Below, one piece after another: positions 2,061 through 35,596 of a stretch of DNA of 41,832 bases (positions are counted from its first letter, which is position 1; each line of letters begins with the position of its first letter). Origin of the DNA: a virus; IMG/VR virus record IMGVR_UViG_3300028388_002814, positions 1 through 41,832 of that record. One strand, written 5' to 3'. A program made the position numbers and the translations under genes. A model generated the notes under the pieces. It had not been told where the DNA came from and searched no databases. It was given only the letters and a program-made list of their open reading frames with translations.

Positions 2061-2972
2061 TTAGGATTTTGAAACGGCATAAGAGGCGTAAACCAACCCT
2101 GCCATTCCCGTGTCATAAAATGGGTGCATGAAATGTTCAAAAATCATTGCCGCTCGTTCGTTGTCACTGTTAAGCAAAACGGACTGACAGTAAGCAACAA
2201 CGTGGCGCCTCACACCCTCGGGATCCTCATCTTTCAATCCCTTTACAATGGTTTTAACCGTGTGCCAACTTTGACCTTTCAACAAGGCTCGGCAGAGTTC
2301 TATGGATTGGTTCTGTTGCTCCGCCTGTCGCTTGGCTGCACTTAGGCGCTCCTCCTTGGGCACACGTAGGACCTGGTCCAAGATTTGAAGGCCGGCACGT
2401 GGGTGGCCCATACTGTCTTGAATAATTTGTTTTCCGACCTTCCCGCTTATCCGTTCCCCCTCCGCTTTACAGACGCTCATGATAAGGGATTTCATCTCCT
2501 CATCCGTTAGGGGCTGAACAAGGAAATCAGTACACCGATCTTTCACCGTCGGAAGCAGCTTCTGCGGGTCCGTTGTACAAAGGGCGAAGTACACGTGGTT
2601 GGGGGTATCCTCTAGGATTTTGAGCAAGGCACTTTGAGCGTCTTTTGTGAGCTGATGACACTCATCCAAAATCCACATTCGCCGTTCTCCCTCTAGGGGT
2701 CTGTAAGATGCCTGCTTTCGGATCTCCCTCACACTGTCTATACCGCGGAAGTCTGCGGTGTCAAGCTCCCGCAAGTCCGACCCTTTGATACCAAGTTCTT
2801 TAGCCACTATTCTTGCCAGTGTCGTCTTCCCGTTTCCCTTGGGTCCGTGGAACAAAAAAGAATGAGGGCATTCCTCCTTGTTAGCTACCATAGTTTTGAG
2901 GGCAGATACTGTGGCTTTATTGCCGTACATTTCATCGAAACTTGACGGACGGTATTTTAGGTATAGATTCAT
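2061..2972 (-). CDS. AAA+ sliding-clamp loader subunit
   Basis: Loads the sliding clamp onto primed DNA using ATP. The N-terminus YLKYRPSSFDEMYG matches the RFC/DnaX opening. Walker A is GPKGNGKTT (about residues 44-52), Walker B is ILDECH (about residue 100), sensor 1 is ALCTTDP, and the arginine-finger region is VKDRC. Length (303 aa) fits a small-subunit loader or the ATPase part of DnaX, and no second loader subunit is seen here. It is preceded by the 32-bp repeat array and, further upstream, a TATAAT promoter, so it likely heads the clamp-loader/UvsY/gp32 unit. The partner clamp is at 6598-7617. Confidence 0.9.
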   Translation of the reverse strand: MNLYLKYRPSSFDEMYGNKATVSALKTMVANKEECPHSFLFHGPKGNGKTTLARIVAKELGIKGSDLRELDTADFRGIDSVREIRKQASYRPLEGERRMWILDECHQLTKDAQSALLKILEDTPNHVYFALCTTDPQKLLPTVKDRCTDFLVQPLTDEEMKSLIMSVCKAEGERISGKVGKQIIQDSMGHPRAGLQILDQVLRVPKEERLSAAKRQAEQQNQSIELCRALLKGQSWHTVKTIVKGLKDEDPEGVRRHVVAYCQSVLLNSDNERAAMIFEHFMHPFYDTGMAGLVYASYAVSKS

Positions 2973-2985: not shown

Positions 2986-3212
2986 TTATTTAGGTAATAT
3001 TCGTTAGGATTCCTTACTTTTTTAGGCGCTATTCGTCAAAAAACTTTAAAAAATTAGGTTGCCCGTTTTGGTAGATTTTGCTCGAGTAAACAACGGAAAA
3101 CCTCGGTTAATTTTTTTAGGCACTATTCTTCGCAATTCCTTAGAAATTAAAGCCGTATTCGTCGCTTGAGGCAACTTATTAAGGCATTATTCGTTACGAA
3201 ACCTAAGAAAGT
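2986..3212 (-). repeat. 32-bp-period repeat array upstream of the clamp-loader gene
   Basis: Degenerate units contain, on the plus strand, TTAGG-N4-TATTCGT. TATTC cores lie at 2998, 3030, 3124, 3156 and 3188, so the spacings 2998-3030, 3124-3156 and 3156-3188 are exactly 32 bp. A degenerate unit sits at about 3056. Read in the direction of transcription, the motif is close to GACGAATACCGCCTAAATAA. The last unit ends (CCTAAATAA, 2994 to 2986) 13 bases before the clamp-loader ATG. Some units contain the palindrome TTCGTnACGAA. Three helical turns per unit suggests a protein-binding array, but the function is unknown. Confidence 0.85.
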
Positions 3213-3471: not shown

Positions 3472-4872
3472 TTAGGGTAAGGGTATGGTTTTCAAATCGT
3501 TCCAACTGGCGTCAATATCTCCCATGTCTACTTCCACGTCTAAGGGTACGATAATCCAAGGCCAAGCCTCTTTCAAAGCGTCTATCATAATAGGCCGTAG
3601 CATGGACAAGAACTCATCCTTTTCGACAGGCACGACATCTGCGATAATGGCATCGTGGATCTGTCCAATTAAACGTGTCTCCATCTTCCTGCGACGGAGT
3701 TCTTTGTCAAGTTCAATGAAGGCCCACAACAGGCAGTGGAAAGCGGCTCCTTGGATGGGGTAGTTTGTGGCATCGTTTCTGCCCATTGGACCGTAGCATT
3801 TAAAGCCTGTAAGCAGTTCCACGTATCCTGTGCGCTGGTACTTTCTATACACCTTCTCCTTCCACGTATTGTACACGGCAAACCGCTCCTCCCAAAAGTG
3901 TCGTTCAATTTCTTTTAAGTGATTGGTGAACGATGTGATGGACTTAATTCCGTTGGCCCGTAAGTGGTCGGAAAGAAAAAGCCCGTCCTCAATTTCAATG
4001 CCTTGTCTTTGCCCCCAACGACCCTCGGGTAACTTCCCCCAATCGTGAGCCAATGACATAGCGTTGTTTCCGTAATAATCCCCGTAGAACTGAGGAAAGA
4101 CGAATCCGTTTTTCGCGGCACTCCGCAGGGTCTTATGACCGGCGATTGACTTGTCCAATTTGTCTAGGAAGAAAATCTGTTCCGCCATGTCTCCGTGCAT
4201 GTCACTGGAGGGGTCCTTAATGTATTTTATCATATTAGGATCCTTGTGGTAACAGGCGGAGATACTTACTTCAATTCCACTGTAATCAACTTCTAAGAGC
4301 TGGCACCCTTCTCTTGGGTACAATGCCTGCCTACAAATGGCTGCCGCTTCTGCGTCGCGCTTTGGTATGTTTTGGAAGTTGGGACGGTCGGAGGAACTGC
4401 GGTGGGTGCGGACCGTGTGGAGGTTAAAGAAAGGGTGGACGAATCCATCCACTTGCTCTTTAATGAACCCGTTCAAATACGTGTCTCGGATTTTCAAAAG
4501 TTTACGCATCCGCAAGAGCTTCTCAAGCTCGGGAATGCCTAATCCAAGCAGGGCCTCCTCGTCCGTTGACCCCTTCCCTGTGGCTGTGGTTTTTTTGGGT
4601 TTGATCTTTTTGGTTTTGTACAGGAAGGATCCAAGTTGTGCATTGGACGTTAGGTTAGGCTTCTTGCCCCGTAGGCTATGCTTCCAATGCCGGTAGAACT
4701 TCGTCTGTTGAAACTCCGTTCGCAAGTCCTCAATTTCTTCCGTCAGCTGCTTGGTAGTTTGTTTGCAATAATCCAAGTCAATCCGAATCCCTTGCCGCTC
4801 TGCTCTACCGAATGCAAGAATGCCTTGATGGACGAGGCGGTAGGCGTCTTTTTGTGTGGCTTGTTCACTCAT
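3472..4872 (-). CDS. Family A DNA polymerase, polymerase domain only
   Basis: Replicative polymerase of the Pol I/T7 family, without its exonuclease. Motif A is LLEVDYSGIEVSISA. Motif B is in RSAAKNGFVFPQFYGD. Motif C is QIHDAIIAD, which keeps the essential Asp but has Ala where Pol I has Glu (HDE). The 3'-5' exonuclease lies in the separate gene 5403-6596, so the enzyme is split. I chose ATG 4872 (MSEQATQK) over an upstream TTG at 4884. A 16-codon frame (4865-4915) begins on the ATGA of the preceding stop codon and ends on this start, which suggests translational coupling. Final length is 466 aa. Confidence 0.92.
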   Translation of the reverse strand: MSEQATQKDAYRLVHQGILAFGRAERQGIRIDLDYCKQTTKQLTEEIEDLRTEFQQTKFYRHWKHSLRGKKPNLTSNAQLGSFLYKTKKIKPKKTTATGKGSTDEEALLGLGIPELEKLLRMRKLLKIRDTYLNGFIKEQVDGFVHPFFNLHTVRTHRSSSDRPNFQNIPKRDAEAAAICRQALYPREGCQLLEVDYSGIEVSISACYHKDPNMIKYIKDPSSDMHGDMAEQIFFLDKLDKSIAGHKTLRSAAKNGFVFPQFYGDYYGNNAMSLAHDWGKLPEGRWGQRQGIEIEDGLFLSDHLRANGIKSITSFTNHLKEIERHFWEERFAVYNTWKEKVYRKYQRTGYVELLTGFKCYGPMGRNDATNYPIQGAAFHCLLWAFIELDKELRRRKMETRLIGQIHDAIIADVVPVEKDEFLSMLRPIMIDALKEAWPWIIVPLDVEVDMGDIDASWNDLKTIPLP

Positions 4873-4915
4873 GTTTGTTGTCAATTATTTCCACGTCGTT
4901 GTATGATTCTTTCAT
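4865..4915 (-). CDS. Possible 16-residue coupling peptide before the polymerase
   Basis: The short frame MKESYNDVEIIDNKHE starts on an ATGA overlapping the stop of the 77-aa gene. It ends in a TGA inside the first codons of the polymerase. It probably matters, if at all, by carrying ribosomes to the polymerase start. No independent function can be assigned. Confidence 0.3.
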   Translation of the reverse strand: MKESYNDVEIIDNKHE

Positions 4916-5145
4916 CGGTATTCAGGTTTGGGGGCGTTTTTAATCTGATTAACATGGCACACAACGTCTTCTTGGTTGTCTATTCCTGTTAATTGTTTTG
5001 TTTTGTACAATGCATTTTTAGCACATTCCTTCCTCTGCGCTTTACAGGCTTCATCCCATTTAATTTTGGCATATTCTTCCAACATTCTCTCTAACTTCCC
5101 GCCATCAAACATTTTTTGGCTTTGTAGATATTCCTTTGCTGTCAT
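4912..5145 (-). CDS. Hypothetical protein (77 aa) between polymerase and exonuclease genes
   Basis: A lysine- and glutamate-rich, probably helical protein with three cysteines. The start ATG overlaps the stop of the upstream zinc-ribbon gene by 4 bases, and the stop overlaps the following mini-frame, so the genes form a continuous translational chain. No domain recognised. Its place within a split polymerase cluster suggests a replication accessory role, but this is only inferred from context. Confidence 0.65.
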   Translation of the reverse strand: MTAKEYLQSQKMFDGGKLERMLEEYAKIKWDEACKAQRKECAKNALYKTKQLTGIDNQEDVVCHVNQIKNAPKPEYR

Positions 5146-5339
5146 TGGTTACCCCTTATTTTAGTTTGATTGAAAACACTTTCCTCAACTGTCCAACAAA
5201 ATTCACACTGTTCAGGCTCCCAATCTTTATACTCTCTGCCATAAGCATCCATCTGCATAACAGGTCGGGCAATCACTCCTGAATTATCACAGTTTGGGCA
5301 ACTTTTCCATTCTTCTTTTGGTACTTTCTTTTCTGTCAT
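5142..5339 (-). CDS. Small zinc-ribbon-like protein (65 aa)
   Basis: Contains two CxxC pairs: SCPNCDNSG near residue 14 and QCEFCWTVEE near residue 44, separated by about 28 residues. This is typical of a single zinc ribbon or DnaJ-type zinc knuckle. Function unknown. It is coupled to the downstream 77-aa gene by a 4-base overlap. Confidence 0.7.
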   Translation of the reverse strand: MTEKKVPKEEWKSCPNCDNSGVIARPVMQMDAYGREYKDWEPEQCEFCWTVEESVFNQTKIRGNQ

Positions 5340-5406
5340 TGGTTACTCCGTTTAAAGAGGCTTCTGTATCATATGCTGGGTCGCCTTTTTCTACTGATAC
5401 TCTCAT
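5287..5406 (-). CDS. Possible 39-residue overlapping protein
   Basis: An ATG at 5406 overlaps the TGA of the exonuclease gene (ATGA). The frame runs 39 codons, and its last 53 bases overlap the start of the zinc-ribbon gene in a different frame. The start context matches the coupled pairs nearby. It could be a real small protein or simply bridge ribosomes to the next start. Confidence 0.35.
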   Translation of the reverse strand: MRVSVEKGDPAYDTEASLNGVTNDRKESTKRRMEKLPKL

Positions 5407-6596
5407 GTCAAGATCTCCATTTGTTTTTTGGCAAGTCGGTATTCGTAAGCGGAGTCTAAGGCGCAGTATTCTAGCAAGGACTGCCTGCCTTTGGTGCTCC
5501 TCATTAATTCCTTGACCCGGTTTATAGCATTGCCGCCCTCCCCCTCATCACTGCTCCTCAGATAGGGGCTCACATCATCGGAATAATCCACGATGCCAAA
5601 ATTGACATACGTTTGGAATTTCAGCGAAGAAATTCCCGGGCGATTGTCTAGGACGTGAGTGGCGAGCATGCTATCCCATTCCCATCCGCGAACGGGTACT
5701 TTTAGGATCTCCCTGCTCCATGTGTCTTCATACTTGAGATTGTGTGCCATCTTTGGAGTGGTACTGTTTAACCACTTCCTCCATGGTAGCCAGTCTCTCG
5801 CGGAATTTGGCGCCTCAAACACGTAAACAAGGTCCTCCCTAGGGGCCACTGACACGCATACAATTTCGTGCTTCCGTCCTTGCGGCTTCAAACCCGTTGT
5901 CTCATAGTCAAAAGCAGTGAGTCCTTTTAGGCTCTTTAGGAAGCCCAAATCCTTGGTAATTTCAATCTGTGGTTTTGGGTAACGTGGAAAGACGGCGTGA
6001 AGCACAGAAAGCGCCCGTTCAATATCTTGCTCCCAAATGGTCATAATGTCTGTCGCCTTCTCCTTGTAATACACGTACCCAGGATCAAACAATGGACAGA
6101 CCCACGCCTTTAGTTCTTGGTCGGGAATAGTCCATCCACGGTACCGTTCCAAGCCCGCCTTCCCCATCCTGTGAGTAATGACACTATCAATGGCAAAGTT
6201 ACCTAAGACAAGAATCAATTTGGGTTGGTACTTCTGCAGAGCCTTCCACACAAGCACGCTACGGCAGTGGTCCACTTCTACGCCGGTAGGAACCCTGTCG
6301 GGTGGACGACAATTGACGGCATTCAACGACAGGCAATCTCGGAAAAGATTGATGCCATACTTGGACAGGATTTTGCGCAGGAGCCGCCCGCCTTTACCCT
6401 GCCAAGGTTTGCCTCGTTCATCGTCCACCCAATCCGGGTACTCACCAATCACCATAATTCCTTTTTCAAACTTCCCGTAGGGTTTCATTTTCGGGCTTTG
6501 GCAACCCTTGTAAAGCCCACACGAAACACAGGAATGAATCTTGCCTCCTATGGCGGATATGGATTCGGTTTCTTTTTGTGAAAAGAATCCTTGCAT
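5403..6596 (-). CDS. Uracil-DNA glycosylase-like domain fused to 3'-5' exonuclease
   Basis: Residues about 20-200 resemble family 4 Fe-S uracil-DNA glycosylases: cysteines in CVSCGLYKGC, the nucleotide-pocket segment VIGEYPDWVDDERGKPW (GEAPG-like but with Tyr), and NAVNCRPPD. The usual HPS motif appears replaced by FDPGYV, so glycosylase activity is uncertain. Residues about 220-397 form a DEDDy proofreading exonuclease: FDYETTGL (motif I), MAHNLKYEDTW (motif II) and YCALDSAYEY (motif III). Together with the gene at 3472-4872 it completes a Pol I-type polymerase. A UDG-like N-terminal domain on a phage Pol A is known from SPO1-like phages. It follows the clamp gene by one base. Confidence 0.88.
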   Translation of the reverse strand: MQGFFSQKETESISAIGGKIHSCVSCGLYKGCQSPKMKPYGKFEKGIMVIGEYPDWVDDERGKPWQGKGGRLLRKILSKYGINLFRDCLSLNAVNCRPPDRVPTGVEVDHCRSVLVWKALQKYQPKLILVLGNFAIDSVITHRMGKAGLERYRGWTIPDQELKAWVCPLFDPGYVYYKEKATDIMTIWEQDIERALSVLHAVFPRYPKPQIEITKDLGFLKSLKGLTAFDYETTGLKPQGRKHEIVCVSVAPREDLVYVFEAPNSARDWLPWRKWLNSTTPKMAHNLKYEDTWSREILKVPVRGWEWDSMLATHVLDNRPGISSLKFQTYVNFGIVDYSDDVSPYLRSSDEGEGGNAINRVKELMRSTKGRQSLLEYCALDSAYEYRLAKKQMEILT

Positions 6597-7630: not shown

Positions 7631-8602
7631 TTAAATTAAATTTTGCAATGGCTCGTACGGAGTCATGCTCTTGTACCAATTGATATCGTTTTGCATTCGG
7701 AGAAAGAAATGGAGGTTGATACGGGCCCGTCCCAAGTGGGATTGGAGGTCCTCGTAAGTGTACCCATCTCGCTCAAATTGCTTTAGGATTTCATCGGTTA
7801 TCGTGTACCCCCGTCCACCCGTCCGATCACTCACTCTCCATATGGTGAAATTGCTATTGGAAATAACACGGGTATCACTGCTAAACCCCCAGTGGGGGAA
7901 GATGACTTTTCCGTACCCTGCGAACAGCCGCCACGTGGTAGAGTCGCAGGAATGCCAAGGCAGGTCTCGGATGGACGTGATGGCGGTAACGGCGAACCCG
8001 TGCGTCCGAACCTTTACGCCATTTTTATACAGGTAGTCAAACACGGAATCCATCCATGCCTTTTTGGAGGTTTGTGACATATCGTTAGCGGGAGAAATCC
8101 CAATATAGTCTGTCAGCTCTAACATCTTGTCTAACCACTTCCAATCCTCCCCTTGGTGGAATACGTGTATGGGAGTGATACCGTTGGACAGCATGATTTT
8201 CAAATTCTTCAACCCTTCCGCGGCTGCCTTGTTTATGATCTCCTTATTCTGCTGTTTGACTTCGGGGTCACGCAAGGCATTAAGCAAGTCTTTGGTTTCT
8301 CCTTTCTTACCGGGGATCACGTCCAAGTTTACCACATGAACTTCCTTGTTAGCTTCCGCAGACATTTCGATGATCTCGTGGGCCTGTTTGATGTAGGCAT
8401 CCAAATCAATCACGTCCCCTTTGTTCCAAGCGGAGAACGCCCCGGAGTCCAAGATTATTTCTCCCGGCTCCGTGGGGTTCATTTGTAACCAACGTTTGAT
8501 CTGGGAGGGGTAGGCATGAGAAACCAGTCGGCACTTAACCAACGGGGCATCTTCCTCGGGTGCCGCCCACCTCCCTGCGAAGTATAGCTTAATTGGCTCC
8601 AT
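7631..8602 (-). CDS. dpdA: DpdA-like 7-deazaguanine DNA transglycosylase
   Basis: A phage relative of tRNA-guanine transglycosylase that exchanges guanine in DNA for a 7-deazaguanine base. The catalytic region ILDSGAFSAWNKGD (about residue 50) matches the DSGAF signature. HVVNLDVIPG, GISPANDMSQ and SCDSTTWRLFAGYG are the other barrel motifs, including the second conserved Asp. Length 323 aa is typical for phage DpdA. It overlaps the QueF stop by 14 bases and lies in one unit with queF, folE and queC, so preQ1 is the expected donor base. Sequence specificity cannot be read from this window. Confidence 0.9.
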   Translation of the reverse strand: MEPIKLYFAGRWAAPEEDAPLVKCRLVSHAYPSQIKRWLQMNPTEPGEIILDSGAFSAWNKGDVIDLDAYIKQAHEIIEMSAEANKEVHVVNLDVIPGKKGETKDLLNALRDPEVKQQNKEIINKAAAEGLKNLKIMLSNGITPIHVFHQGEDWKWLDKMLELTDYIGISPANDMSQTSKKAWMDSVFDYLYKNGVKVRTHGFAVTAITSIRDLPWHSCDSTTWRLFAGYGKVIFPHWGFSSDTRVISNSNFTIWRVSDRTGGRGYTITDEILKQFERDGYTYEDLQSHLGRARINLHFFLRMQNDINWYKSMTPYEPLQNLI

Positions 8603-9056
8603 CGCCCTCGTTGTTTTGGAGGTATTTTCTGTTGTCGTACTCCGCGGTGATGTTAATCAGTGTACCCCCGCGGGCATTGAACTCTCCGATCACTTCCATC
8701 CACCTTGGCTTGGCGACAGAAACGCAATGCTCAAGCACGTTGTTGGTGATGGTTTCCATGAAAGATCCGTGCTGCCGGTAGGCAAGGAAATAGAGCTTCA
8801 AGGACTTGGTTTCAATACAGAGTTCATCGGGTATATACCGAACGGTCATTTTGGCGAAATCCGGTTGCCCTGTCTTTGGGCAAAGACTGCTGAATTCCAA
8901 AAAGACAAACTCAGTCACATAGTCTCTATGGGGGAACTGATTGGGGAACGTCTCAAGCAATTCAGCCGTGGGTTCCGTGTACTTGTATTTGGTTTTGGCG
9001 GATCCAAGTTCCGTCAGTTGATCGGTATTATCTACTTTCAAATTTTCGTTTGACAT
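8589..9056 (-). CDS. queF: NADPH-dependent preQ0 reductase (QueF)
   Basis: Reduces 7-cyano-7-deazaguanine (preQ0) to 7-aminomethyl-7-deazaguanine (preQ1). The active-site motif SSLCPKTGQPDFA carries the catalytic Cys and Asp. YFLAYRQHGSFMETITN is the family's second signature. At 155 aa this is the short, unimodular form. Its presence indicates that the phage makes preQ1 rather than stopping at preQ0. It overlaps dpdA, which supports direct use of preQ1 for DNA modification. Confidence 0.95.
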   Translation of the reverse strand: MSNENLKVDNTDQLTELGSAKTKYKYTEPTAELLETFPNQFPHRDYVTEFVFLEFSSLCPKTGQPDFAKMTVRYIPDELCIETKSLKLYFLAYRQHGSFMETITNNVLEHCVSVAKPRWMEVIGEFNARGGTLINITAEYDNRKYLQNNEGDGAN

Positions 9057-9082
9057 GGTGAGTTTATGTGTTGGTTTTAAAG

Positions 9083-9550
9083 TTAGGTACCCTCAATCCA
9101 AGGGTGCTTTTTTTCTAAAGATAGTTGGCGTCTTTTGTAGAACGTGGAGACAAACCTTTCCTCCTCCTCAGGCATTTCGTAATTCCCCGGAGTTCCACGT
9201 CGCTTTTCAACCCTATAAGAGTTCAGACATCGTCGTTTGTCTCTTTTGTAATCTATAGGGCGAATCTGCCAGTACCCATTGTTGGTCCTTTCCAAAAATC
9301 CTCCCTTCCACGCACATACTCGCAGAACCATAAGGACTCTGTTTCGCAGTGCTTTATAGGAAACGCCTTCCACCTCCTCGGGGTATTCCTCTTGGTACAT
9401 TTGAACGAGGGTGTTTGCATCATCCCCACGGGAGTGGGAAGTGCTGATGAATTTGCGCTCCCAAAACATCGTCCGTTGGGGCGTTTTTTGGTTGAGTAGT
9501 TCTACAAGGTGATCGAAATGCTTGCTTGGGATTGATTGGTTTGTTCCCAT
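9083..9550 (-). CDS. Hypothetical basic protein within the 7-deazaguanine operon
   Basis: A 155-aa protein from ATG 9550, 4 bases after the folE stop; a TTG at 9568 would overlap folE and is less likely. It is rich in Arg/Lys and aromatics. The central stretch SYKALRNRVLMVLRVCAWKGGFLERTN may be a winged helix, followed by RPIDYKRDKRRC. No family recognised. The position between folE and queF makes a role in DNA modification, or in protecting the modified DNA, possible, but nothing in the sequence proves it. Confidence 0.65.
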   Translation of the reverse strand: MGTNQSIPSKHFDHLVELLNQKTPQRTMFWERKFISTSHSRGDDANTLVQMYQEEYPEEVEGVSYKALRNRVLMVLRVCAWKGGFLERTNNGYWQIRPIDYKRDKRRCLNSYRVEKRRGTPGNYEMPEEEERFVSTFYKRRQLSLEKKHPWIEGT

Positions 9551-9554
9551 GGTA

Positions 9555-10121
9555 TTATTTCCTATCAATTAAGGCGAAAAGTTCCTGCCGTGCCGTGGCG
9601 TCCTCGTACAAGACACCTTTGACACTGGAGGTGGTCATTACGGAATTTTGCTTGCCTACACCACGGGCGCACATGCACATGTGACGGGCTTCAATAACAC
9701 AAGCAGCCCCCTTGGCATTTAGGTGGTCCATAAGGGCTGAGGTTACCTCCTCTCCAATCCGTTCTTGGATCTGTAGGCGGCGGGCATAAATGTCAAGCAG
9801 TCGTGCCAGCTTTGAAATTCCTATCACCTTTCCATCGGGTATGTAGGCCACGTGTGCCTTCCCGTAGAAAGGGAGCATGTGATGCTCACAGGTACTATAC
9901 ATTTCAATATCTCGAAGGAGAATGATTTGGTCATACGACCCTGCCTCGAAAACAGTCAAAACGTCCTCGGGCTTTTGGTTGTATCCTGCGAACAATTCCC
10001 TCCAAGACTTCACCACCCGCTTGGGCGTATCTTGGAGTCCTTCCCGCTCGGGGTCTTCCCCGATTTCATAAAGGATTTGTTTGATTAAGGCTTCACGTCC
10101 GTCTCTCATATTCTGCATCAT
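9555..10121 (-). CDS. folE: GTP cyclohydrolase I
   Basis: Opens GTP to 7,8-dihydroneopterin triphosphate, the first step to preQ0. Zinc and active-site motifs are [39 protein letters not shown] and [12 protein letters not shown]. The start is ATG 10121 ([12 protein letters not shown]), whose ATGA overlaps the queC stop. A longer upstream frame is only read-back into queC. Predicted length is 188 aa, normal for the bacterial enzyme. Confidence 0.96.
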
Positions 10122-10798
10122 ATCCATCCTTTGGCTTTGGCTTCCTCGTACCCTTTGGCACGGATAACGCTTGCGGGATTGTCTAGGCGTCCATAGCCCC
10201 AATCGTGCTTTTCATCTCGGTTGCCGTTGTAGTCCGTATGGGACAGCTCAACAACCACGTCTACGCAATTGAGTTCTTTGGCTAGACGCCACGTCTCGGC
10301 TTTGGTTAACCACATTAGGGGCGTCCAAATTTCAAGCCTGTCATCGTCCAATCCCAACGCCAGTGCAGTCCGCATTGCTTGGACGAAATTATTTCGGCAA
10401 TCTGGATAGCCGGAATAGTCCGTTTGGCATACGCCTGTCACCAAATGATGGATATCATTTTCACGGGCAAAAGAAGCGGCAATGGTAAGGAAAAGAATGT
10501 TCCGTCCCGCCGTAAAACTTGCCGGCAGATCCTCATCCAAATGGGATTCCGCAGACACGTCTTGCTCGTGGTTTACAAGGGCACCTCCAGTAAGGAGTCC
10601 TTGCACATTAAATACCTTAAATGGTACGCTTGCCCTGTCGGCTATTTTGGCTGCTTGCTCCAGTTCAACTTTGTGCTTTTGTCCGTAGTCAAAGCCTATG
10701 GCAATCACGTGATTGAATTGCGACAGAGCCCAGTGCAAACAAGTGGTGGAATCTTGCCCTCCAGAAAAGAGTACAAGAGCGGTTTCATCGGTTTTCAT
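10118..10798 (-). CDS. queC: 7-cyano-7-deazaguanine synthase (QueC), zinc site lost
   Basis: ATP-dependent conversion of carboxydeazaguanine to preQ0. The PP-loop SGGQDSTTC is intact (residues 12-20), as are [40 protein letters not shown] and the segment [12 protein letters not shown]. In most QueC proteins four cysteines near the C-terminus bind zinc (TCYNG, then CGxCxxC). Here the region reads SHTDYNG, then [17 protein letters not shown], with no cysteine. This is a real family oddity if the sequence is correct. The gene starts 9 bases after the last unit of a 32-bp repeat array. Confidence 0.94.
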
Positions 10799-10807
10799 AT
10801 GAAATAT

Positions 10808-10925
10808 TTATTTAGGTGTTATTCTTGTGATTTCTTTAGAAATTAAAGCCAAATTCGTGACGAATCCTTACTTTCTTAGGCGGTATTCGTCACGAAACTT
10901 AACTTTTTTAGGCAATTCGAGGGTG
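10808..10925 (-). repeat. 32-bp-period repeat array upstream of queC
   Basis: TATTC or AATTC cores at 10820, 10852 and 10884 are exactly 32 bp apart, and a fourth at 10914 is offset by 30. The unit at 10878 reads TTAGGCGGTATTCGTCACGA and includes the palindrome TTCGTCACGAA. The unit nearest the gene ends CCTAAATAA (minus strand) 9 bases before the queC ATG. Same motif and orientation relative to the gene as the arrays at 2986-3212 and 35495-35583. Confidence 0.85.
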
Positions 10926-10929
10926 CGAA

Positions 10930-11152
10930 TTATTTAAAGGTTAGTCCTCCTTCCTCTGTCTCTACAACCAACCGGTCAAATCTGTTGTATTTGGGGTTCT
11001 TGCTGTCCGTCAAAAGAACAGTGATTGTGGACTTGGCAAGGTCGACGTGGCCCATAGCCATTTCCACTAATTCTTTTTGACTGTAGGTCCCTTCCTCAAG
11101 GAGGGGTGTGAGGAACTCACGTACCTGTTGCGACTTGGATACGCGTTTACGG
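10930..11152 (-). pseudogene. Out-of-frame C-terminal winged-helix-like domain
   Basis: In the -1 frame relative to the acidic-protein gene an open frame ends at TAA 10930. It encodes a coherent domain with segments QQVREFLTPLLEEGTYSQKE, LAKSTITVLLTDSKNPKYN and LVVETEEGGLTFK. This looks like the wHTH-type C-terminal domain seen at the end of some phage Lys/Glu-rich proteins. It has no good start codon of its own. Adding one base to the C3 run at 11151-11153 (minus strand) would join it to the upstream protein as EAKPRKRVSKSQQ. It is thus either a frameshifted C-terminus (mutation or sequencing error) or a product of -1 frameshifting. Confidence 0.55.
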
Positions 11153-11714
11153 GCTTGGCTTCTACCGCCTCTTCCGGCTCCTCTTTCTTTTTCTTTTTCG
11201 CCTCTTTTTTCGGCTTGCTCTTTTTGGGTTCCTTTTTGGGTTCGGGTGCGGGTTCCTCTTCCTTGACCCCTGCCACGCTTAGCATGGCATCTCGAAGGTC
11301 AGAATAGGCTCCGTGTTTCGCGACGTTGACGTCCCAAAAATAATCCTCGTATTCTTCAGTCAAGGTAACAAGTTCTCGGCGGTTTGAGCAACCCTCGATA
11401 AGGGCAACCATTTCCTCGTCAGATACTTCCTCTTCCTCGGAGGCTTCCTCCTCTTCCACTTCCTCCTCAAGGATCTCTGCCTCTTCCACTTCCTCCTCCT
11501 CAGCTTCGGCATTCATAAGCCTTTCCAAAACGGAAGCAGTGTCATCCGTGAACTCATCATCGGCAGTAATCAGCCCAAGAGCTTCAGTCAACTTTGCCTC
11601 CAGTTCATCAATGGTTGTCTTTGTGGTTGCGATTGCCGGTTCCAATCCCAGCGTCTTGTTCAACTCTTTGGCGGCTGCCACTAAAAGTTGTTTAGGTGTC
11701 TTTTGCTTTGCCAT
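11067..11714 (-). CDS. Acidic/lysine-rich protein, probably frameshifted near its C-terminus
   Basis: A 215-aa protein from ATG 11714 (MAKQKTPKQLL). The upstream TTG at 11762 lies inside the promoter and is rejected. Layout: an N-terminal helical domain (residues 1-75), a Glu-rich linker, a second small domain (SDEEMVALIEGCSNRRELV to RDAMLSVAGV), then a Lys/Pro/Glu tail. The visible C-terminus YPSRNRYVSSSHPSLRKG looks unnatural, while the -1 frame gives a folded-looking domain (see 10930-11152). Function unknown; perhaps a DNA-associated protein. It has its own promoter at 11754-11783. Confidence 0.7.
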   Translation of the reverse strand: MAKQKTPKQLLVAAAKELNKTLGLEPAIATTKTTIDELEAKLTEALGLITADDEFTDDTASVLERLMNAEAEEEEVEEAEILEEEVEEEEASEEEEVSDEEMVALIEGCSNRRELVTLTEEYEDYFWDVNVAKHGAYSDLRDAMLSVAGVKEEEPAPEPKKEPKKSKPKKEAKKKKKEEPEEAVEAKPVNAYPSRNRYVSSSHPSLRKGPTVKKN

Positions 11715-11753
11715 AATAGTATTATTTGGTGATGGTTGTCTATTGGTATCTGT

Positions 11754-11783
11754 ATTATACAACAGGTACCAAGTCCTTTGAAA
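11754..11783 (-). promoter_or_regulatory. Promoter, TTTCAA-N18-TATAAT
   Basis: Minus-strand TATAAT (11759 to 11754) follows TTTCAA (11783 to 11778) with an 18-base spacer. It lies just after the queE stop codon and about 40 bases before the ATG at 11714. The spacer end reads CTGTTG next to TATAAT, as in the promoter at 3256. Confidence 0.6.
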
Positions 11784-11789
11784 TCTTTG

Positions 11790-12560
11790 TTAGACCCCCG
11801 TCGTTTGATTCCAAAGATTTATTTGTAAACGGCTGCTGAACTGAAAGCCAAATTCCTTGCACAGTTCCGCAACCAAAGGCCCGTTCCTCTCAAATTCCTC
11901 ACGGGTACTGCACCCGGGCATCAAGTACACTTTAGGAATAGAAATGCTAAAGGGGTCAATGTAGTCTCGGAACATTTCTTCCACATCGTCCTCGTGGGTT
12001 ATCACGAACTTGAAAATGGATTGCCCCAAATGAGACAGGGCGGCAAGTTGTGTGAGGGGTTCGTCTTTGATGCGACGTCGTTCGGGCATTCCGGAATTGG
12101 CGAGTTTTGGAGACACGTTGAACTGATCGATAAGACCCGTGAAATTATTCTCCAATTCTACAGTTCCATTCGTCTCAACCTCAATACGGATATGGGGGTT
12201 ACCTGCTTGGCTTTGCCCCTGCCTGCGAAGTATGTTAATGAACGGGATCAATTGGGATTGTTGCATAAGGGGCTCGCCTCCTGTGATTACCAGCTGACTG
12301 CCTCCATGAAATTCCCCATAGTAATTGTCCACAACGTCCATTGCATAGGATTGGGGATCGTACCCGTCTCCTTTCAGCCAAACTTCAATGGTATCACATC
12401 GCCACGTGGCCCCATCGTGCAGTTCCTTATCCCGTTCCGTACCGTTACCTCCGCACATGAGATTGCACCCTTGGAGCCGGAGGAAGACCGATGGTTTCCC
12501 CATGGTGTTTCCTTCTCCTTGCACACTGTGAAAAATCTCGCTAACTCGTAATTTCTTCAC
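11790..12560 (-). CDS. queE: 7-carboxy-7-deazaguanine synthase (QueE)
   Basis: Radical SAM enzyme that turns 6-carboxytetrahydropterin into 7-carboxy-7-deazaguanine. The N-terminus EIFHSVQGEGNTMGKPSVF is characteristic. The cluster region is an expanded variant, GCNLMCGGNGTERD followed by TWRCDT, rather than compact CxxxCxxC. ITGGEPLMQQ (SAM contact) and EVETNGT are also present. Length 256 aa. It follows queD with a one-base gap, so the two are co-translated. Confidence 0.95.
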   Translation of the reverse strand: MKKLRVSEIFHSVQGEGNTMGKPSVFLRLQGCNLMCGGNGTERDKELHDGATWRCDTIEVWLKGDGYDPQSYAMDVVDNYYGEFHGGSQLVITGGEPLMQQSQLIPFINILRRQGQSQAGNPHIRIEVETNGTVELENNFTGLIDQFNVSPKLANSGMPERRRIKDEPLTQLAALSHLGQSIFKFVITHEDDVEEMFRDYIDPFSISIPKVYLMPGCSTREEFERNGPLVAELCKEFGFQFSSRLQINLWNQTTGV

Positions 12561-12561
12561 T

Positions 12562-13005
12562 TCAGTTGCCTCCGTGGTATGTGGATTTATTCTTATAATC
12601 CTCGTGGACTGTGACAGAGACTACACGGACTCTCGTTCCTTCCGATTCCGCGATCCTTGTAACCAGTTCTCTGTACACCATTTCCGCAAGCCCCTCACAA
12701 GAGCAACTTGAAACGAGTACAATGTCTGCCAATCCCTCATCCCGCAATTTCAACAGCCGTGAGGCTTCCGGGTCACTGTGATTGATTAAACAGGTGTGAT
12801 CGAACATAGCTGTCAGCCATTCTTTAAACTCTTTGAACTTTCCGAAATCGTAAACGAAGCCGCACTCATCAAGCTCGTCAGCCTCCAGTGTTACCTCGAA
12901 ATCCCAGTTGTGCCCGTGGATTAAAGAACAGTGGCCCTCATGCTCGGGTTGGCGGTGTGCAAAGGGGTATCCTTTGAATATTTTGGTTATCGTATATGGT
13001 GCCAT
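12562..13005 (-). CDS. queD: 6-carboxytetrahydropterin synthase (QueD)
   Basis: Converts dihydroneopterin triphosphate to 6-carboxytetrahydropterin. Zinc ligands appear as FAHRQ near residue 16 and HGHNW near residue 30, with a catalytic Cys in GHCSLIHGH. FVYDFGKFK and MFDHTCLIN are family motifs, and the C-terminal Glu is in VTVHEDYKNKSTY. Length 147 aa. It is first in a queD-queE transcript driven from the promoter at 13094-13123. Confidence 0.94.
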   Translation of the reverse strand: MAPYTITKIFKGYPFAHRQPEHEGHCSLIHGHNWDFEVTLEADELDECGFVYDFGKFKEFKEWLTAMFDHTCLINHSDPEASRLLKLRDEGLADIVLVSSCSCEGLAEMVYRELVTRIAESEGTRVRVVSVTVHEDYKNKSTYHGGN

Positions 13006-16136: not shown

Positions 16137-16653
16137 GCTTATGCTTTTGCTCTCTTGTAGAATTCTTTAAATGCGCACTTAAAGAATTCTTTAAAGGCGC
16201 ACTTAAAGGTTTCTTTAAATGCGACTTTTGATTGGTTGCAACTGATTCCTGGTTGGTTTTAGTTGGTTTCGCCGTTTTGCTTCTCATTTTGGCAATTTGG
16301 CGGTCCTGCTCCTCAATAGCTTCCACCAGCGTTTGCCTATGGTGTTCTAGGTACTGCCTATTGACACGGAGTTGGCGCCTTTGCCCGTTTTGGGTTTTGG
16401 TGTATTCCGCCTTTAAAAAATCCAATTTGATTAGGCGGTTGACAGATTTAGAAATGGAAACAAATGACCGGTTTAATTTGATACCAAGGTACTTATTGGA
16501 GGCCCAACAGCCTCGGGTGGTGTGCTCCAAATTTGACACCAATCCAAACACGTATCCATCCAGGTCGTTGGTGTCCGGGTGGAGGAGAATTTCTGCAGGA
16601 ATGAAAAGCCCGCTCATCCCCATTTGCTGAAACTTGTCGTCATTTTTGTCCAT
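16087..16653 (-). CDS. Lambda O-like replication initiator with internal iterons
   Basis: A 188-aa protein from ATG 16653 (MDKNDDKFQQMG). An upstream ATG at 16698 lies inside the terminator hairpin and is rejected. Residues about 12-90 form a winged helix: LFIPAEILLHPDTNDLDGYV, RGCWASNKYLGIKLNRSF, SVNRLIKLDFLKAEYTK. This is the usual N-terminal DNA-binding domain of phage initiators. The C-terminal part has an 8-residue repeat (LSAPLKNS, LSAHLKNS) encoded by 24-bp DNA repeats. The lambda analogy (origin inside gene O) suggests self-recognition of these repeats. Expression is probably controlled by the attenuator-like leader upstream. Confidence 0.75.
   Translation of the reverse strand: MDKNDDKFQQMGMSGLFIPAEILLHPDTNDLDGYVFGLVSNLEHTTRGCWASNKYLGIKLNRSFVSISKSVNRLIKLDFLKAEYTKTQNGQRRQLRVNRQYLEHHRQTLVEAIEEQDRQIAKMRSKTAKPTKTNQESVATNQKSHLKKPLSAPLKNSLSAHLKNSTREQKHKHEEHSTHYTGIGTFTV
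16164..16235. repeat. 24-bp iterons, candidate replication origin
   Basis: Three tandem 24-bp units start at 16164, 16188 and 16212. Units 1 and 2 contain CTTTAA-N8-TTAAAG inverted repeats around GCGCAC; unit 3 is degenerate in its second half. They lie inside the gene for a winged-helix initiator, just like lambda ori within O. Conservation at the base level is high, though the 24-bp length also equals eight codons, so a protein-level repeat is an alternative. Confidence 0.6.
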
Positions 16654-16933: not shown

Positions 16934-17830
16934 TCAAAATATTTTTCGTATCAGCCGGCGGGCTTGTTTGGGTGTCAGGTCTCCAGGGTCAGAGGGCAGG
17001 TCTAAAAGAACTCCTTCCACGTATCGTTCACGGAGTTCTGCCATGAGCTTTTTGGCTTGGAGTTGGGCTTGGGGTTCCGGGTCAAAGGCAATAAGAACCC
17101 GATCAAAGTTCTTGGCAATGTGGCGGAGTTGCCTCCGTGTAAAGTCTATGCCAAACGTGGCAAAAGCTACAGGCCCAAATCGCCAGGCGTCTGTAATGCC
17201 TTCCACACAGATTCCCACCCGTTGCCACTCCTCCTGTTTTCCGTACAAGATGTCTTGGTGGTTAATGAGTTCACGGTCCTTGGGACAGGCGAGATATTTG
17301 ATCGGGTGCTTGCCGGTCACATCACGGGCCTGGAAACTCACTTGCTCCCCTTCCCAAAAGATCGGGGCTACGATTCTGTGCTTGTAGTCTATGTGGTCGA
17401 GTTTGGCTATAGGTCCCGTTCCTTGCACGCCCCACACCTCCGCCAATTGGTCGGGGTCAAACTTGCGTTTTTGCAGGTACCTCTTGTGGCGGGAATTGAG
17501 GGGCATTGTACCCGTGGGCAGTTTGTGTGCTTTGGTGCGAGGCTTCCGCTTTACTTCCGTTGGGGTGGGGGCGGCAATAGGAACCTCATATTTCGTAAGG
17601 ATGGGTCCTAACTTCCGCTCATCTATTCCCAGTATCTTCCCTAAGGCTTGCCGCAGTGGATGGGCTCCGCATCGCCAGCAGTTTGTGGCGCCGGAATCCG
17701 CGATCCCTAAATGCTTAGAATGGTCGGCACAGAAAGGGCATCGTACATTAGTCCACCCATCCCGGTAATTCCCATCACCGGGTTGGGCGACCGGTACTCC
17801 ATAGTCGCGAAACAGTCGTGCAACGTCCAT
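16934..17830 (-). CDS. DNA primase (zinc-binding and TOPRIM domains)
   Basis: Makes RNA primers. The N-terminal zinc domain has VRCPFCADHSKHLGI and ATNCWRCGAHP (residues about 30-58). The RNA-polymerase-like core includes HKRYLQKRKFDPDQL and HRIVAPIFWEGEQVSFQARD. The TOPRIM region has GICVEGITDAW (Glu) and VLIAFDPEPQAQ, where a usual DxD is FDPEP. At 298 aa it is short, with no helicase domain, fitting the separate helicase at 13127. It overlaps the sigma-like gene at TGATG. Confidence 0.85.
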   Translation of the reverse strand: MDVARLFRDYGVPVAQPGDGNYRDGWTNVRCPFCADHSKHLGIADSGATNCWRCGAHPLRQALGKILGIDERKLGPILTKYEVPIAAPTPTEVKRKPRTKAHKLPTGTMPLNSRHKRYLQKRKFDPDQLAEVWGVQGTGPIAKLDHIDYKHRIVAPIFWEGEQVSFQARDVTGKHPIKYLACPKDRELINHQDILYGKQEEWQRVGICVEGITDAWRFGPVAFATFGIDFTRRQLRHIAKNFDRVLIAFDPEPQAQLQAKKLMAELRERYVEGVLLDLPSDPGDLTPKQARRLIRKIF

Positions 17831-18321
17831 CAGACGAGCGCTTTCAGATCGCGGAATGCTTGTTCAATATCCAAGTGCAACCACCCCCGATCGCGCAACT
17901 CCTCCCGAAGGCGAGCCTTTACAGGTCCACAGCCTTTGAAATTTGGAGTCTGCGAAAGGAAACGGTCGGGATCCTCCAACACTATGGCCGCGATCTCTTT
18001 GTACTCTTTCGGCCAAGATGTCGCGTATTCTGCAAGGTCGAAATCCTCTTTCAGTTCTTCCTTTGGATGGAGGTAGGATGGAAGGGATTCATAGAGGGAC
18101 GTATTTTGGGAGAAACGTGTCTCCTGCTTGCAGAAATTAATGAGGTGATTTTTCATGCAGGTGTAGGCATACGTGGTCAGCTTTACCCCCTTGTCTTTTT
18201 GGAAAGAACGCTCGGCGGAGAGGTATGCTAACCGAGCCTCGCAAAACAGCTCATCGTAATCTATTCCTGTGGTGTTTTGAAAGGTGTGTGCTAGGTGGTG
18301 GATTAGGTTAGAGTTTTCCAT
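17830..18321 (-). CDS. Sigma-70-like protein (region 2)
   Basis: A 163-aa protein with a sigma region 2 pattern: IDYDELFCEARLAYLSAERS, then KGVKLTTYAYTCMKNHLINF, the core-binding and -10-recognition helices. A C-terminal segment, GPVKARLREELRDRGW, resembles a short helical domain seen in phage sigma-like proteins rather than a classical region 4. It may direct host RNA polymerase to phage promoters. The leader is CTCACACCCACACCACA-ATG without a Shine-Dalgarno sequence. Confidence 0.75.
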   Translation of the reverse strand: MENSNLIHHLAHTFQNTTGIDYDELFCEARLAYLSAERSFQKDKGVKLTTYAYTCMKNHLINFCKQETRFSQNTSLYESLPSYLHPKEELKEDFDLAEYATSWPKEYKEIAAIVLEDPDRFLSQTPNFKGCGPVKARLREELRDRGWLHLDIEQAFRDLKALV

Positions 18322-22537: not shown

Positions 22538-22726
22538 CTAAAACTCAGGGTCTGTGACACGTTCCAAGTAGTCCTCCTTCCTGTGTTCAGGTATGTAGTC
22601 CAAAATGGACCGGACAAGATAATCGAAATCAGTCCATTGTATGTTCGCGATTGGCATTAAACTTTCTGCCGTGTATTGGTGGGCGGCGTCAATGTACTTG
22701 AATGGGTCTATTCTTTCTGTTGTCAT
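22538..22726 (-). CDS. Hypothetical protein (62 aa)
   Basis: A short acidic helical protein (DPFKYIDAAHQYTAESL, DYIPEHRKEDYLERV). No family recognised. Supported by the conserved leader TAATCCCTACCACA directly before its ATG, shared with neighbouring genes. Confidence 0.6.
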   Translation of the reverse strand: MTTERIDPFKYIDAAHQYTAESLMPIANIQWTDFDYLVRSILDYIPEHRKEDYLERVTDPEF

Positions 22727-22743
22727 TGTGGTAGGGATTAGGG

Positions 22744-22947
22744 TTATTTGTAAATGCCGTAAACGGTGTCACTTTCATCGTATTTGATGAAAATGCCAGC
22801 AACCTTTTCTTGCCCCTTGCCACGCTTGACGAAGAAGTTAAGATCGAAACCATATGTACCTCTGTAATACCAAGTTGACAAGTTGCTAAAACGAGCGATA
22901 TGCTCTGCGAATTCTTTGTGGGTAACTTTGTGAAATGTCTTTTTCAT
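22744..22947 (-). CDS. Hypothetical protein (67 aa)
   Basis: A short basic protein with probable beta strands (STWYYRGTYGFDLNFFVKRG, VAGIFIKYDES). No family recognised. The leader TTAATCCCTACCAAA-ATG matches the conserved early-gene leader. Confidence 0.6.
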   Translation of the reverse strand: MKKTFHKVTHKEFAEHIARFSNLSTWYYRGTYGFDLNFFVKRGKGQEKVAGIFIKYDESDTVYGIYK

Positions 22948-22967
22948 TTTGGTAGGGATTAAGTAAT

Positions 22968-23467: not shown

Positions 23468-24147
23468 TTAAACTCAGCTGCTACAAATTGGTGTAGCTTT
23501 TGGTGCTGTTCAATGTAGTGATAGGGATGGGTTTTCTTGAGGGCGTGTGTGGTGTGATTGTACAGGCCCCACAAGTTGTCTTCCGCCAGTTCCGGGTAGG
23601 TGGGTGTCTTCAGCTCTTGGCGGATAATGGACAGCTGAGACGTGGTGATAATTTCATGCTCCATTAGCATGCGTCCGCACAACTCGGCGGTGGCTGTTTT
23701 GTCAAGCTCAACGGACTTCATCCGTTCGGCTTGGGCAATCGTAATCCGCATCATTTCGCCGATTTCTCCGATGGTGGATTCGATCCGTTGTTGGACCTCG
23801 TTACGTACCGTTCCCGTATGGCGACGGAAGTACTGGCTCTCCCCAAGTATCATTCCGTTTGAGCATATGAGCACGGACGTACCGGCCACGAATGCAACAG
23901 GCCGGCTCTTATTGTAACTATTTCTCCAAGCCAGTCTATAACCAAATTCGGCGGAGTCTGCGGCAAGGTCCAAGTAGCCTACAACCTCTTGGCCACCGTT
24001 GGCGGCATTGTATGTTTTGCCTGTGATTGTGAGCCCCTGCTTGTCAACGTTCTCGGCAATCATTTCTGCCAGGAATTGATGTGACACAGGCTTGTAGGTT
24101 TCAGTTGCTACGGGGACGGGTACGTTAAACAGTTCTTGTTCTTTCAT
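23461..24147 (-). CDS. DUF932-like phage/plasmid protein
   Basis: A 228-aa protein resembling DUF932, a family common on phages and plasmids whose role is not established. Recognisable parts are SHQFLAEMIAENVDKQGL, AEFGYRLAWRNSYNKSRP, VAGTSVLICSNGMILGES and HTGTVRNEVQQRIESTIG. The C-terminal half is helical with LWGLYNHTTHALKK. Stop codon overlaps a small hairpin. Confidence 0.75.
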   Translation of the reverse strand: MKEQELFNVPVPVATETYKPVSHQFLAEMIAENVDKQGLTITGKTYNAANGGQEVVGYLDLAADSAEFGYRLAWRNSYNKSRPVAFVAGTSVLICSNGMILGESQYFRRHTGTVRNEVQQRIESTIGEIGEMMRITIAQAERMKSVELDKTATAELCGRMLMEHEIITTSQLSIIRQELKTPTYPELAEDNLWGLYNHTTHALKKTHPYHYIEQHQKLHQFVAAEFNL

Positions 24148-24179
24148 GATAGTATGGATTAAGTGTGTGGATGGTTTTG

Positions 24180-24880: not shown

Positions 24881-25168
24881 TTAGTCCTCGACAGGGCGAA
24901 GCCAAACCGTCTTGCCGTACATCTCTTCGTGGATGTCATTGACGATTTCGTCAAGTACTGTCTTGTCCAAATACAGTTTGCCAAATGGCGTGTCTGTTCT
25001 GTGGAGGTGGAAGATGACGATGCTTAAAAGTTGTGCTCTCAACTTCGCCTGCTCCGGATTGTATGTAACCTCTGTCCTCAAGTCGTTGGCATGTGACATG
25101 AGTGCTATTTCAGCTTTCACTGAATTCAAATTGTCGCGGTCGGTAAAAAGGTTTTCGTAAATTTTCAT
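24881..25168 (-). CDS. Hypothetical protein (95 aa)
   Basis: From ATG 25168 (MKIYENLFTDRDN); an earlier start would overlap the upstream gene. Helical, with LRAQLLSIVIFHLHRTDTPF in the middle. No family recognised. Preceded by the clearest copy of the conserved leader (CCTAATCCCTACCACA-ATG). Confidence 0.6.
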   Translation of the reverse strand: MKIYENLFTDRDNLNSVKAEIALMSHANDLRTEVTYNPEQAKLRAQLLSIVIFHLHRTDTPFGKLYLDKTVLDEIVNDIHEEMYGKTVWLRPVED

Positions 25169-25187
25169 TGTGGTAGGGATTAGGTGA

Positions 25188-25550
25188 TTAGAGTTGTACG
25201 TAAACTGCTGTTCGTCTGCTGTCATCAACTCCGTAGTCGATGATCAAATAATACTCATCTGAAAGAGCCGTGCCGCTGTCAATCTTGTAACCCTGCTCGG
25301 CAAGTTCCAACAGCTTTTTGGCACGTCGTTTGTTCGTGCTGTCTTTCTCGCTCCAGGTGCCTTTGCACCCGCACATGCAACCAACCTCTCCGTTGTAGGA
25401 ATTAACAATCTCCTCGGGATGGTCAATCACTCTCTTAAGCAGTGCGATGTCTTGTCGTCGGGCGGCACGTTCCTTCTCTTGCTGCTCTTTCGCGAACTCG
25501 ATTTCTGCTTGGAAAAATTCTTCAAGTGCTTGGTCAAAAGAATGTTTCAT
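25188..25550 (-). CDS. Hypothetical protein with CxCGCK motif (120 aa)
   Basis: Residues 1-45 are a charged coiled coil (FAKEQQEKERAARRQDIALL). A cysteine motif GCMCGCKGTW follows and then an alpha-beta end (YYLIIDYGVDDSRRTAVYV). First gene of the leftward early block, next to the divergent control region. Function unknown. The leader contains CTCCG rather than a Shine-Dalgarno sequence. Confidence 0.6.
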   Translation of the reverse strand: MKHSFDQALEEFFQAEIEFAKEQQEKERAARRQDIALLKRVIDHPEEIVNSYNGEVGCMCGCKGTWSEKDSTNKRRAKKLLELAEQGYKIDSGTALSDEYYLIIDYGVDDSRRTAVYVQL

Positions 25551-25631
25551 TTTATTCTCCGTTAGGTGGTTTGTTAAGTGTGTTAGACGCCCACACTATA
25601 TAAGCGTGAGCGTTTCGCCTAATTAAGGCTC

Positions 25632-25646
25632 ATCAGTAACACTGAT
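25632..25646. repeat. Perfect dyad, candidate operator
   Basis: ATCAGT (25632-25637) and ACTGAT (25641-25646) are perfectly complementary around AAC, with two further outer pairs. The short symmetric form fits a dimeric repressor site between the divergent blocks, but no repressor gene is identified here. Confidence 0.45.
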
Positions 25647-25674
25647 TAGGTAGGTAAGGTGCGGGGGCGAGTGG

Positions 25675-25841
25675 CTGTTAGGTTAGGATAGTAGAAAATC
25701 CTGCCGGGGCAGAACACGTTCTCGGGACTAATTATCTAACAGGCAGTTCTGTTTGCTGCTAAGTTTTGAAACCCTGCAGTAAGCTGCTTTCTTCAAAACT
25801 ATGTTTGCTTCTTCCGGGCGTCGGTCTGCCGATCAAGGCAG
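25675..25841. other. Hairpin-rich segment, candidate packaging site or structured RNA
   Basis: CTGTTAG (25675) pairs with CTAACAG (25736-25742) and encloses AGGAT/ATCCT and GAAC/GTTC stems. AGTTTTGAA (25762) pairs with TTCAAAACT (25792-25800) around GCAG/CTGC. CTGCC (25826) pairs with GGCAG (25837-25841). The density of perfect stems is well above the surroundings. It does not form a tRNA. Confidence 0.45.
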
Positions 25842-26024
25842 TGTGGCAAGTTACAGGCAGTAAAGAGGACTCTCAACAAGCAGCCTTATACCGTATCGCG
25901 ATGCTCTGCGACAAAACCCTCCACGTTTCCGATCTTTGTGGCCTTCCAGTACGTCAACGAGTTGTTTACTTAACTCACTTAAATATACGTATGACGTTTA
26001 AAAAAACAATAGGTTTTATAAAAA

Positions 26025-26053
26025 AAGTTTTCACAAAAAACCGCTGTTATAAT
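26025..26053 (+). promoter_or_regulatory. Candidate late promoter for the packaging/structural block
   Basis: A perfect TATAAT lies at 26048-26053 in AT-rich DNA; no good -35 is present at 17 bases (AAGTTT). It points to the terminase genes, about 160 bases upstream of the terS ATG. The element may need an activator or a phage sigma factor. Confidence 0.4.
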
Positions 26054-26067
26054 ATAGTATAGGCGGA

Positions 26068-26093
26068 TTCTGCGAAAACCGCGGAAATTTTTT
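26068..26093 (+). terminator. Terminator-like hairpin just downstream of the late promoter
   Basis: TTCTGCG (26068-26074) pairs with CGCGGAA (26080-26086, one G-U) around AAAAC, followed by ATTTTTTAAA. It begins about 8 bases after the likely start of transcription from TATAAT at 26048, so it could act as an early pause or termination site that late transcription must overcome. Confidence 0.55.
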
Positions 26094-26213
26094 AAAAAAA
26101 GTTTTGTCTGAATGGAGGAATTCTGTGTCCAATAAGGCGGTATTTGGCAGATTGTGTGTGAAATCGTGAATTTGTATTTTCTTGGATCCACCCCATTCAA
26201 CCACACATATCTT

Positions 26214-28438: not shown

Positions 28439-28528
28439 CCAACTTAGATTAGAAAGGTATTTCAAACTTTTGGATTCATTTTCCAATTCCGTTGTTTAAC
28501 ACAGAACCCCTTCAAGATACTTTCCTAT

Positions 28529-30356: not shown

Positions 30357-30359
30357 AGC

Positions 30360-32039: not shown

Positions 32040-32050
32040 AGGTGATTATT

Positions 32051-33768: not shown

Positions 33769-33784
33769 AAGGAGGTAAACGAAC

Positions 33785-34210: not shown

Positions 34211-34234
34211 ACCAAAAAAGAAAGGAGAAATACT

Positions 34235-35338: not shown

Positions 35339-35356
35339 GGTTTAGTGCTGGGGCAC

Positions 35357-35415
35357 GAAGTAGAGCTCGCCCTTGGATTTTTTATGTTTTGGTCTTGGGG
35401 CGGGCCTACTACTTC
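35357..35415 (+). other. Large hairpin after the capsid gene
   Basis: GAAGTAG (35357-35363) pairs with CTACTTC (35409-35415), and GCTCGCCC (35365-35372) with GGGCGGGC (35398-35405, one G-U). It starts 18 bases after the capsid stop and lacks a U-run, so it may protect the capsid mRNA end or slow transcription. Confidence 0.6.
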
Positions 35416-35432
35416 ACAAGGGATTCCTTATA

Positions 35433-35476: not shown

Positions 35477-35494
35477 CAGTTAATTAAATAAGGT

Positions 35495-35583: not shown

Positions 35584-35596
35584 CCATGGAGGCAAG

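Follow-up and report, generated by a model that had tools for sequence, protein, structure and literature searches.

Three non-coding stretches of a viral genome, each placed directly before a gene, carry tandem arrays of a single asymmetric motif of about 31 bp, TAAGGAnTnnTGACGAATAnnGCCTAAATAA, repeated at steps of 32 bp. The arrays lie in the window (the whole stretch of DNA that was analysed, one IMG/VR virus record of 41,832 bases) and together hold 11 clear and three decayed units. Their conservation and placement indicate that they are real and probably a functional regulatory element, and an element acting at the level of DNA was favoured over one acting in RNA. We propose, with about an even chance of being right, that the arrays are cooperative protein-binding regions for the control of transcription, carrying or flanking a promoter at three internal operon starts.

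Array structure and conservation

2986-3212, minus strand: array A, non-coding, before the clamp-loader gene
about 10808-10936, minus strand: array B, non-coding, before queC
35471-35583, plus strand: array C, non-coding, before the DUF4054-like connector gene

Array A contained five clear units, with GAATA cores starting at 3192, 3160, 3128, 3034 and 3002, and one decayed unit at 3066 that keeps only the CCTAA half. Three clear units were found in array B (cores at 10888, 10856 and 10824), along with a decayed unit at 10920 that has a 2-bp internal deletion. Array C likewise held three clear units (35503, 35535 and 35567), and its decayed unit at 35471 retained GAAT and the AT-rich tail. The step from core to core was 32 bp throughout, with the sole exception of 62 bp between 3128 and 3066 in array A, and the top self-match lag was 32 in every array (0.42 in A, 0.52 in B and 0.64 in C). 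The last CCTAAATAA ended 13 bases before the ATG of the clamp-loader gene (start 2972), 9 bases before that of queC (10798) and 13 bases before that of the DUF4054-like gene (35597).

The first-pass annotation had reported the arrays at these places and strands, had described the units as non-coding and had given the same three distances to the start codons, all of which the sequence bore out. Its 32-bp phasing held for nearly all steps, the 62-bp step in array A being the single departure. A motif common to the arrays is real, but the 20-mer that had been quoted for it has a single exact copy (35564), all other units being at least 2 bases off. All three arrays do lie in the sense orientation, as had been claimed, but with three arrays this would happen by chance one time in eight.

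The 11 clear units gave a consensus with three blocks, TAAGG (positions -14 to -10), ACGAATA (-2 to 4) and GCCTAAATAA (7 to 16), with variable bases between them. Eight of the 32 columns were invariant, and the 90 non-consensus letters were crowded into the remaining columns; such unevenness did not arise in any of 20,000 random placements. This uneven pattern of substitution along the unit is as would be expected for a recognition site. When matrices were built with one array left out, every clear unit of the held-out array was recovered at 20.0-37.2 bits. The best place in the window outside the arrays scored 13.1 bits, and composition-shuffled windows reached a maximum of 14.9. A degenerate two-unit pattern matched six times in the window, always inside the arrays (0 expected, none in 100 shuffles). 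The matrix scan of the 41,832-base window, which is an incomplete genome, detected no single-unit sites before other genes.

Mean unit identity was 0.645 between arrays and 0.605 within an array. Because units from different arrays are at least as alike as those from the same array, recent local expansion of a repeat does not account for them. The units have diverged by 35-40% and their 32-bp spacing is still exact, which suggests selection on spacing. Every array also contained a variant unit, with GGCTTTAATTT or GGGTTTAATTA replacing GCCTAAATAA, followed by a unit with AAGAATA replacing ACGAATA, and the order was constant.

3113-3176, minus strand: two-unit variant of array A, a TTTAATTT-type unit and then an AAGAATA-type unit (cores 3160 and 3128)
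10809-10872, minus strand: two-unit variant of array B (cores 10856 and 10824)
35487-35550, plus strand: two-unit variant of array C (cores 35503 and 35535)

The common ordered pair implies either that the arrays share one ancestral array or that the pair has a role. The palindrome TTCGTnACGAA, seen earlier in some units, was present in three of the 11 (3192, 10888 and 10856); the site is therefore mainly asymmetric, and a dyad operator was rejected on this count. Two further candidates were rejected: intrinsic bending through phased AA/TT (P=0.14), and a CRISPR array, as the units are contiguous and diverged and have no spacers between them.

Genome context and search in relatives

The window is a fragment, with the tape-measure gene (38527 onward, plus strand) running off its right end. 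Early and replication genes occupy the minus strand from about 25.5 kb down to 0.4 kb, virion genes occupy the plus strand from 26.1 kb onward, and a divergent non-coding region lies near 25.6-26.1 kb. The replication genes encode a split family-A DNA polymerase, clamp loader, clamp, DnaB/DnaC-like proteins, primase and an O-like initiator, and those on the virion side encode terminase, portal, capsid and neck proteins. The genes that follow the arrays are these:

2061-2972, minus strand: clamp loader of DNA polymerase, after array A (PHROG 5846, E=6e-66)
10118-10798, minus strand: QueC-like protein, after array B (PHROG 1550, E=8e-57)
35597-35968, plus strand: DUF4054-like protein, probable head-tail connector, after array C (PF13262, E=1e-4, just under the cut-off; PHROG 37884)

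The connector label that the gene after array C had received is weak, given the sub-threshold Pfam match, but it fits the position of the gene after the capsid gene. Array B occupies the gap between two genes and begins right where the preceding reading frame ends, so that any promoter there must lie within the array or far upstream. Of the three genes downstream of arrays, that after array C alone is preceded by a Shine-Dalgarno site; phage-wide, such sites were seen in 12 of 52 genes. The nearest cultured terminase relatives were Cellulophaga and Croceibacter phages (35-37%). The distant cultured relatives and the rarity of Shine-Dalgarno sites suggest a little-studied, Bacteroidota-like phage group.

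Other features were observed in the window. A 7-deazaguanine gene set at 7631-13005 comprises FolE-, QueC-, QueD- and QueE-like genes, a second GTP-cyclohydrolase-family gene and a tRNA-ribosyltransferase/DpdA-like gene, a set that makes guanine modification in the phage's own DNA probable (compare PMC6884629). DNA polymerase A is split in two genes (3472-6596) with two small ORFs between them; the N-terminal part (5403-6596) has a uracil-DNA-glycosylase domain and weak 3'-5' exonuclease similarity, and the polymerase part covers 3472-4884. In the frame of the O-like initiator, 16149-16223 holds three palindromic 27-nt copies (AAAGAATTCTTTAAA) at 24-bp steps, which may mark an origin of the lambda type, although a step of 24 equals eight codons as well. 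A second start-associated motif, TTAATCCCTACCAnAATGAAAA-like, stands directly before several early genes (22720-22742, 22941-22963, 24141-24172 and 25162-25184), and one relative (L161) has AAACCTACCAAATGAAA at a start. A long stable hairpin (z -4.2) follows the major capsid gene at 35350-35415.

Relatives were searched at the sites orthologous to the arrays and beyond them. The motif was absent upstream of 24 clamp-loader homologues (30-62% identity) and of 25 homologues of the DUF4054-like gene (29-62%), where the maximum upstream score was 11.2 bits against 20-31 for true units under the same matrix. No array was found at 80 queC loci, and across all 238 loci (2.75 Mb) the matches were isolated ones only. 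A double match at locus L034 was rejected, its halves being separated by 64 bp and the DNA there likely coding. Arrays were entirely absent from relatives at 50-67% protein identity. In two loci with orthologues of the gene after array C (L030 and L031, 62% and 53%), the gap from capsid to connector has no array; a GCTGGGGC- or CTGGGGC-type sequence and a hairpin-like stretch follow the capsid gene there.

Exact motif and tandem patterns run over IMG/VR, and one pattern run over GTDB genomes, returned only unrelated isolated, coding or simple-repeat matches, and a megablast of 25000-41832 matched no phage record. An unbiased search of the relatives' loci for periodic repeats and repeated intergenic motifs found other repeats, none of them array-like. 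A distant terminase relative carries a different tandem array (L047, 14471-14800), made of near-identical copies of GTTCACATATAGCAATTATCGTGCCAAA of about 28 bp, with no long open frame. All relatives compared are distant, and near-identical records may be missing from the searched sets. So far, then, the arrays have been seen in a single genome and, since no known relative carries them, their function is one that we infer.

Proposed transcriptional control and its alternatives

In the reading that we prefer, a putative phage-encoded or phage-induced protein would bind the asymmetric units side by side. The 32-bp step, equal to three helical turns, would bring neighbouring molecules onto the same side of the double helix, where they could cooperate, and the fixed orientation would aim the complex towards the gene. 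The final unit lies 9-13 bp ahead of the start codon and has AAGGAA and TAAATA separated by 17 bp; it would direct a transcript start just before the gene. Whatever the sign of its effect, the bound array would then set the timing of expression of the clamp-loader, queC and connector genes, separately from that of the long operons whose starts lie in the divergent region. The eight invariant columns, the leave-one-out recovery, the kept spacing, the common variant pair and the position abutting start codons all argue for control arrays. Against this stand the small number of arrays, three in an incomplete genome, and their absence from the relatives' orthologous sites and from the neighbourhood of sigma relatives. 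The promoter-like boxes are also loose, and the strongest block, ACGAATA, sits in the spacer, of which sigma factors normally read little. Nor could every unit be used as a promoter at once, because RNA polymerase covers more than 32 bp. A bolder version, which we consider rather doubtful, has the sigma-like protein described below, or some other factor of the phage, assembling on tandem promoter-operators of about 31 bp into a complex of several units in helical phase. Acting from internal positions, such a complex would switch genes for replication, DNA modification and the virion in concert, and the arrays would be a type of operator array undescribed before.

The window encodes one candidate partner of the arrays:

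17830-18321, minus strand: 163-aa sigma-70 region 2 protein (PF04542, E=3e-9; PHROG 351, E=2.8e-11; PDB 8b3z, E=1.3e-6; Foldseek)

The SigE N-terminal domain was the best structural match to the model of this protein in Foldseek; region 2 was modelled at pLDDT 70-85, and the C-terminal half is unreliable. By position counts, each unit has an AAGGAA-like and a TAAATA-like box 17 bp apart, a geometry that resembles that of bacterial promoters. With such a geometry in the last unit, the transcript would start a few bases before the start codon and have a very short leader. Each unit could accordingly be imagined as a complete promoter for the sigma-like protein, with the array as a tandem row of promoters, and the boxes inside the unit, the presence of a region 2 protein and the placement of the last unit are consistent with this. 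We consider it unlikely, however. No single-unit sites stand before other genes, and no region 4 that could read the -35 box was recognised in the protein. Its three relatives (38-46%) are on contigs without arrays or a like motif, so a link between sigma-like protein and arrays is possible only. The Bacteroidota promoter TTTG-N-TAnnTTTG was a further candidate and is not present at the arrays.

A repressor bound to the arrays might instead act as a roadblock to transcription entering from upstream, like the stoperators of phage L5, whose asymmetric, oriented, intergenic sites within operons (PMC9283540) resemble those seen here. A loose sigma-70-like match at 3283-3256, upstream of array A, means that this array could be transcribed. 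We regard roadblocks as quite unlikely, given that no repressor or integrase was recognised in the window, an incomplete genome, and that the sites form three tandem arrays and not many single 13-bp sites.

The first-pass annotation had proposed either an operator/activator array or an RNA element. The former proved the best fit, in view of the uneven conservation, the exact spacing despite divergence, the internal gene starts and the sigma-like gene; the RNA element found neither an Rfam family nor covariation in its favour. An RNA leader controlling translation or message stability would suit arrays that lie in sense and end 9-13 bases before start codons, and array B did fold better than shuffles (z -3.96). 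That fold, however, arises from the palindromes in its DNA, and array A folded no better than shuffles (z 0.38; array C, z -1.9). The sole repeated stem candidate, TTAGG/CCTAA, paired less often than when letters were shuffled among units, and Rfam gave no relevant match to the arrays at gathering or permissive thresholds. A PreQ1 riboswitch, an idea raised by queC and a unit of about 33 nt, was rejected for want of an Rfam match and a consistent stem. These results make an RNA leader very unlikely.

Similarly improbable is a functionless tandem repeat, spread by recombination or copying and now decaying. Its confinement to one genome, the decayed units and the common ancestral two-unit block would agree with decay, but the conservation of columns is very uneven, the spacing has been kept, units are as alike between arrays as within them, and all three arrays stand at start codons. 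Replication, partition or packaging sites (iteron- or parS-like) adjacent to genes by chance are the least probable reading: as tandem direct repeats spaced by helical turns the arrays do recall plasmid iterons, and a replication gene follows array A, but the arrays lie in three separate places, one among virion genes, and the different repeat cluster at 16149-16223 in the O-like gene is a better origin candidate.

Comparison with known regulatory repeats

T4 late promoters are read by the gp55 sigma at TATAAATA; each consists of one box, with neither phased repeats nor a conserved block upstream. The combination of a small region-2 sigma and an AT-rich -10-like box has its likeness here in the 163-aa protein and CCTAAATAA; the phased repeats set the arrays apart, and the sigma-like protein is only their candidate partner.

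The stoperators of L5 and TipsytheTRex, cluster A mycobacteriophages, are asymmetric 13-bp sites, more than 20 per genome, in short intergenic regions; they follow the orientation of transcription and are bound by a monomeric repressor (PMC9283540). The arrays are likewise asymmetric, intergenic and sense-oriented (n=3). They differ from these dispersed sites in having units of about 31 bp that are grouped into just three tandem sets with a 32-bp step. An immunity repressor with the HTH and stoperator domains was not among the proteins recognised in the window, an incomplete genome. SAS/ESAS repeats of cluster K mycobacteriophages, 13-bp copies of GGGATAGGAGCCC, occur 11-19 times per genome, 3-7 bp before the start codon and mostly in one orientation (PMC3203893). 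Asymmetry, nearness to start codons and a single orientation are common to both, whereas SAS/ESAS are non-tandem and the motif here, TAAGG-ACGAATA-GCCTAAATAA, is tandem and 9-13 bp before the start. SPBRE, a 15-bp motif at about ten SPbeta promoters, is bound by MrpR, a repressor with a tyrosine-recombinase fold (PMC10516654). It too is a phage-specific repeat in front of several genes of one phage, but it is not described as phased or tandem, and the unit here is about 31 bp and tandem. No recombinase-like (MrpR-like) protein was found among the ORFs scanned in this incomplete genome.

Dispersed phage regulatory repeats such as SPBRE were spotted in sequence long before their proteins. Coming from one genome only, the arrays are a lead and not yet a system. 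A limited search of the open-access literature found no published helically phased tandem arrays of units of about 31 bp. On the tests made in this incomplete genome, the arrays could be assigned to none of stoperators, SAS and SPBRE, which by their descriptions are the nearest kinds. Compared with these, phased tandem arrays of long asymmetric sites before functionally different genes would be a distinct architecture, one suggesting that a little-studied group of phages has a regulator that binds cooperatively.
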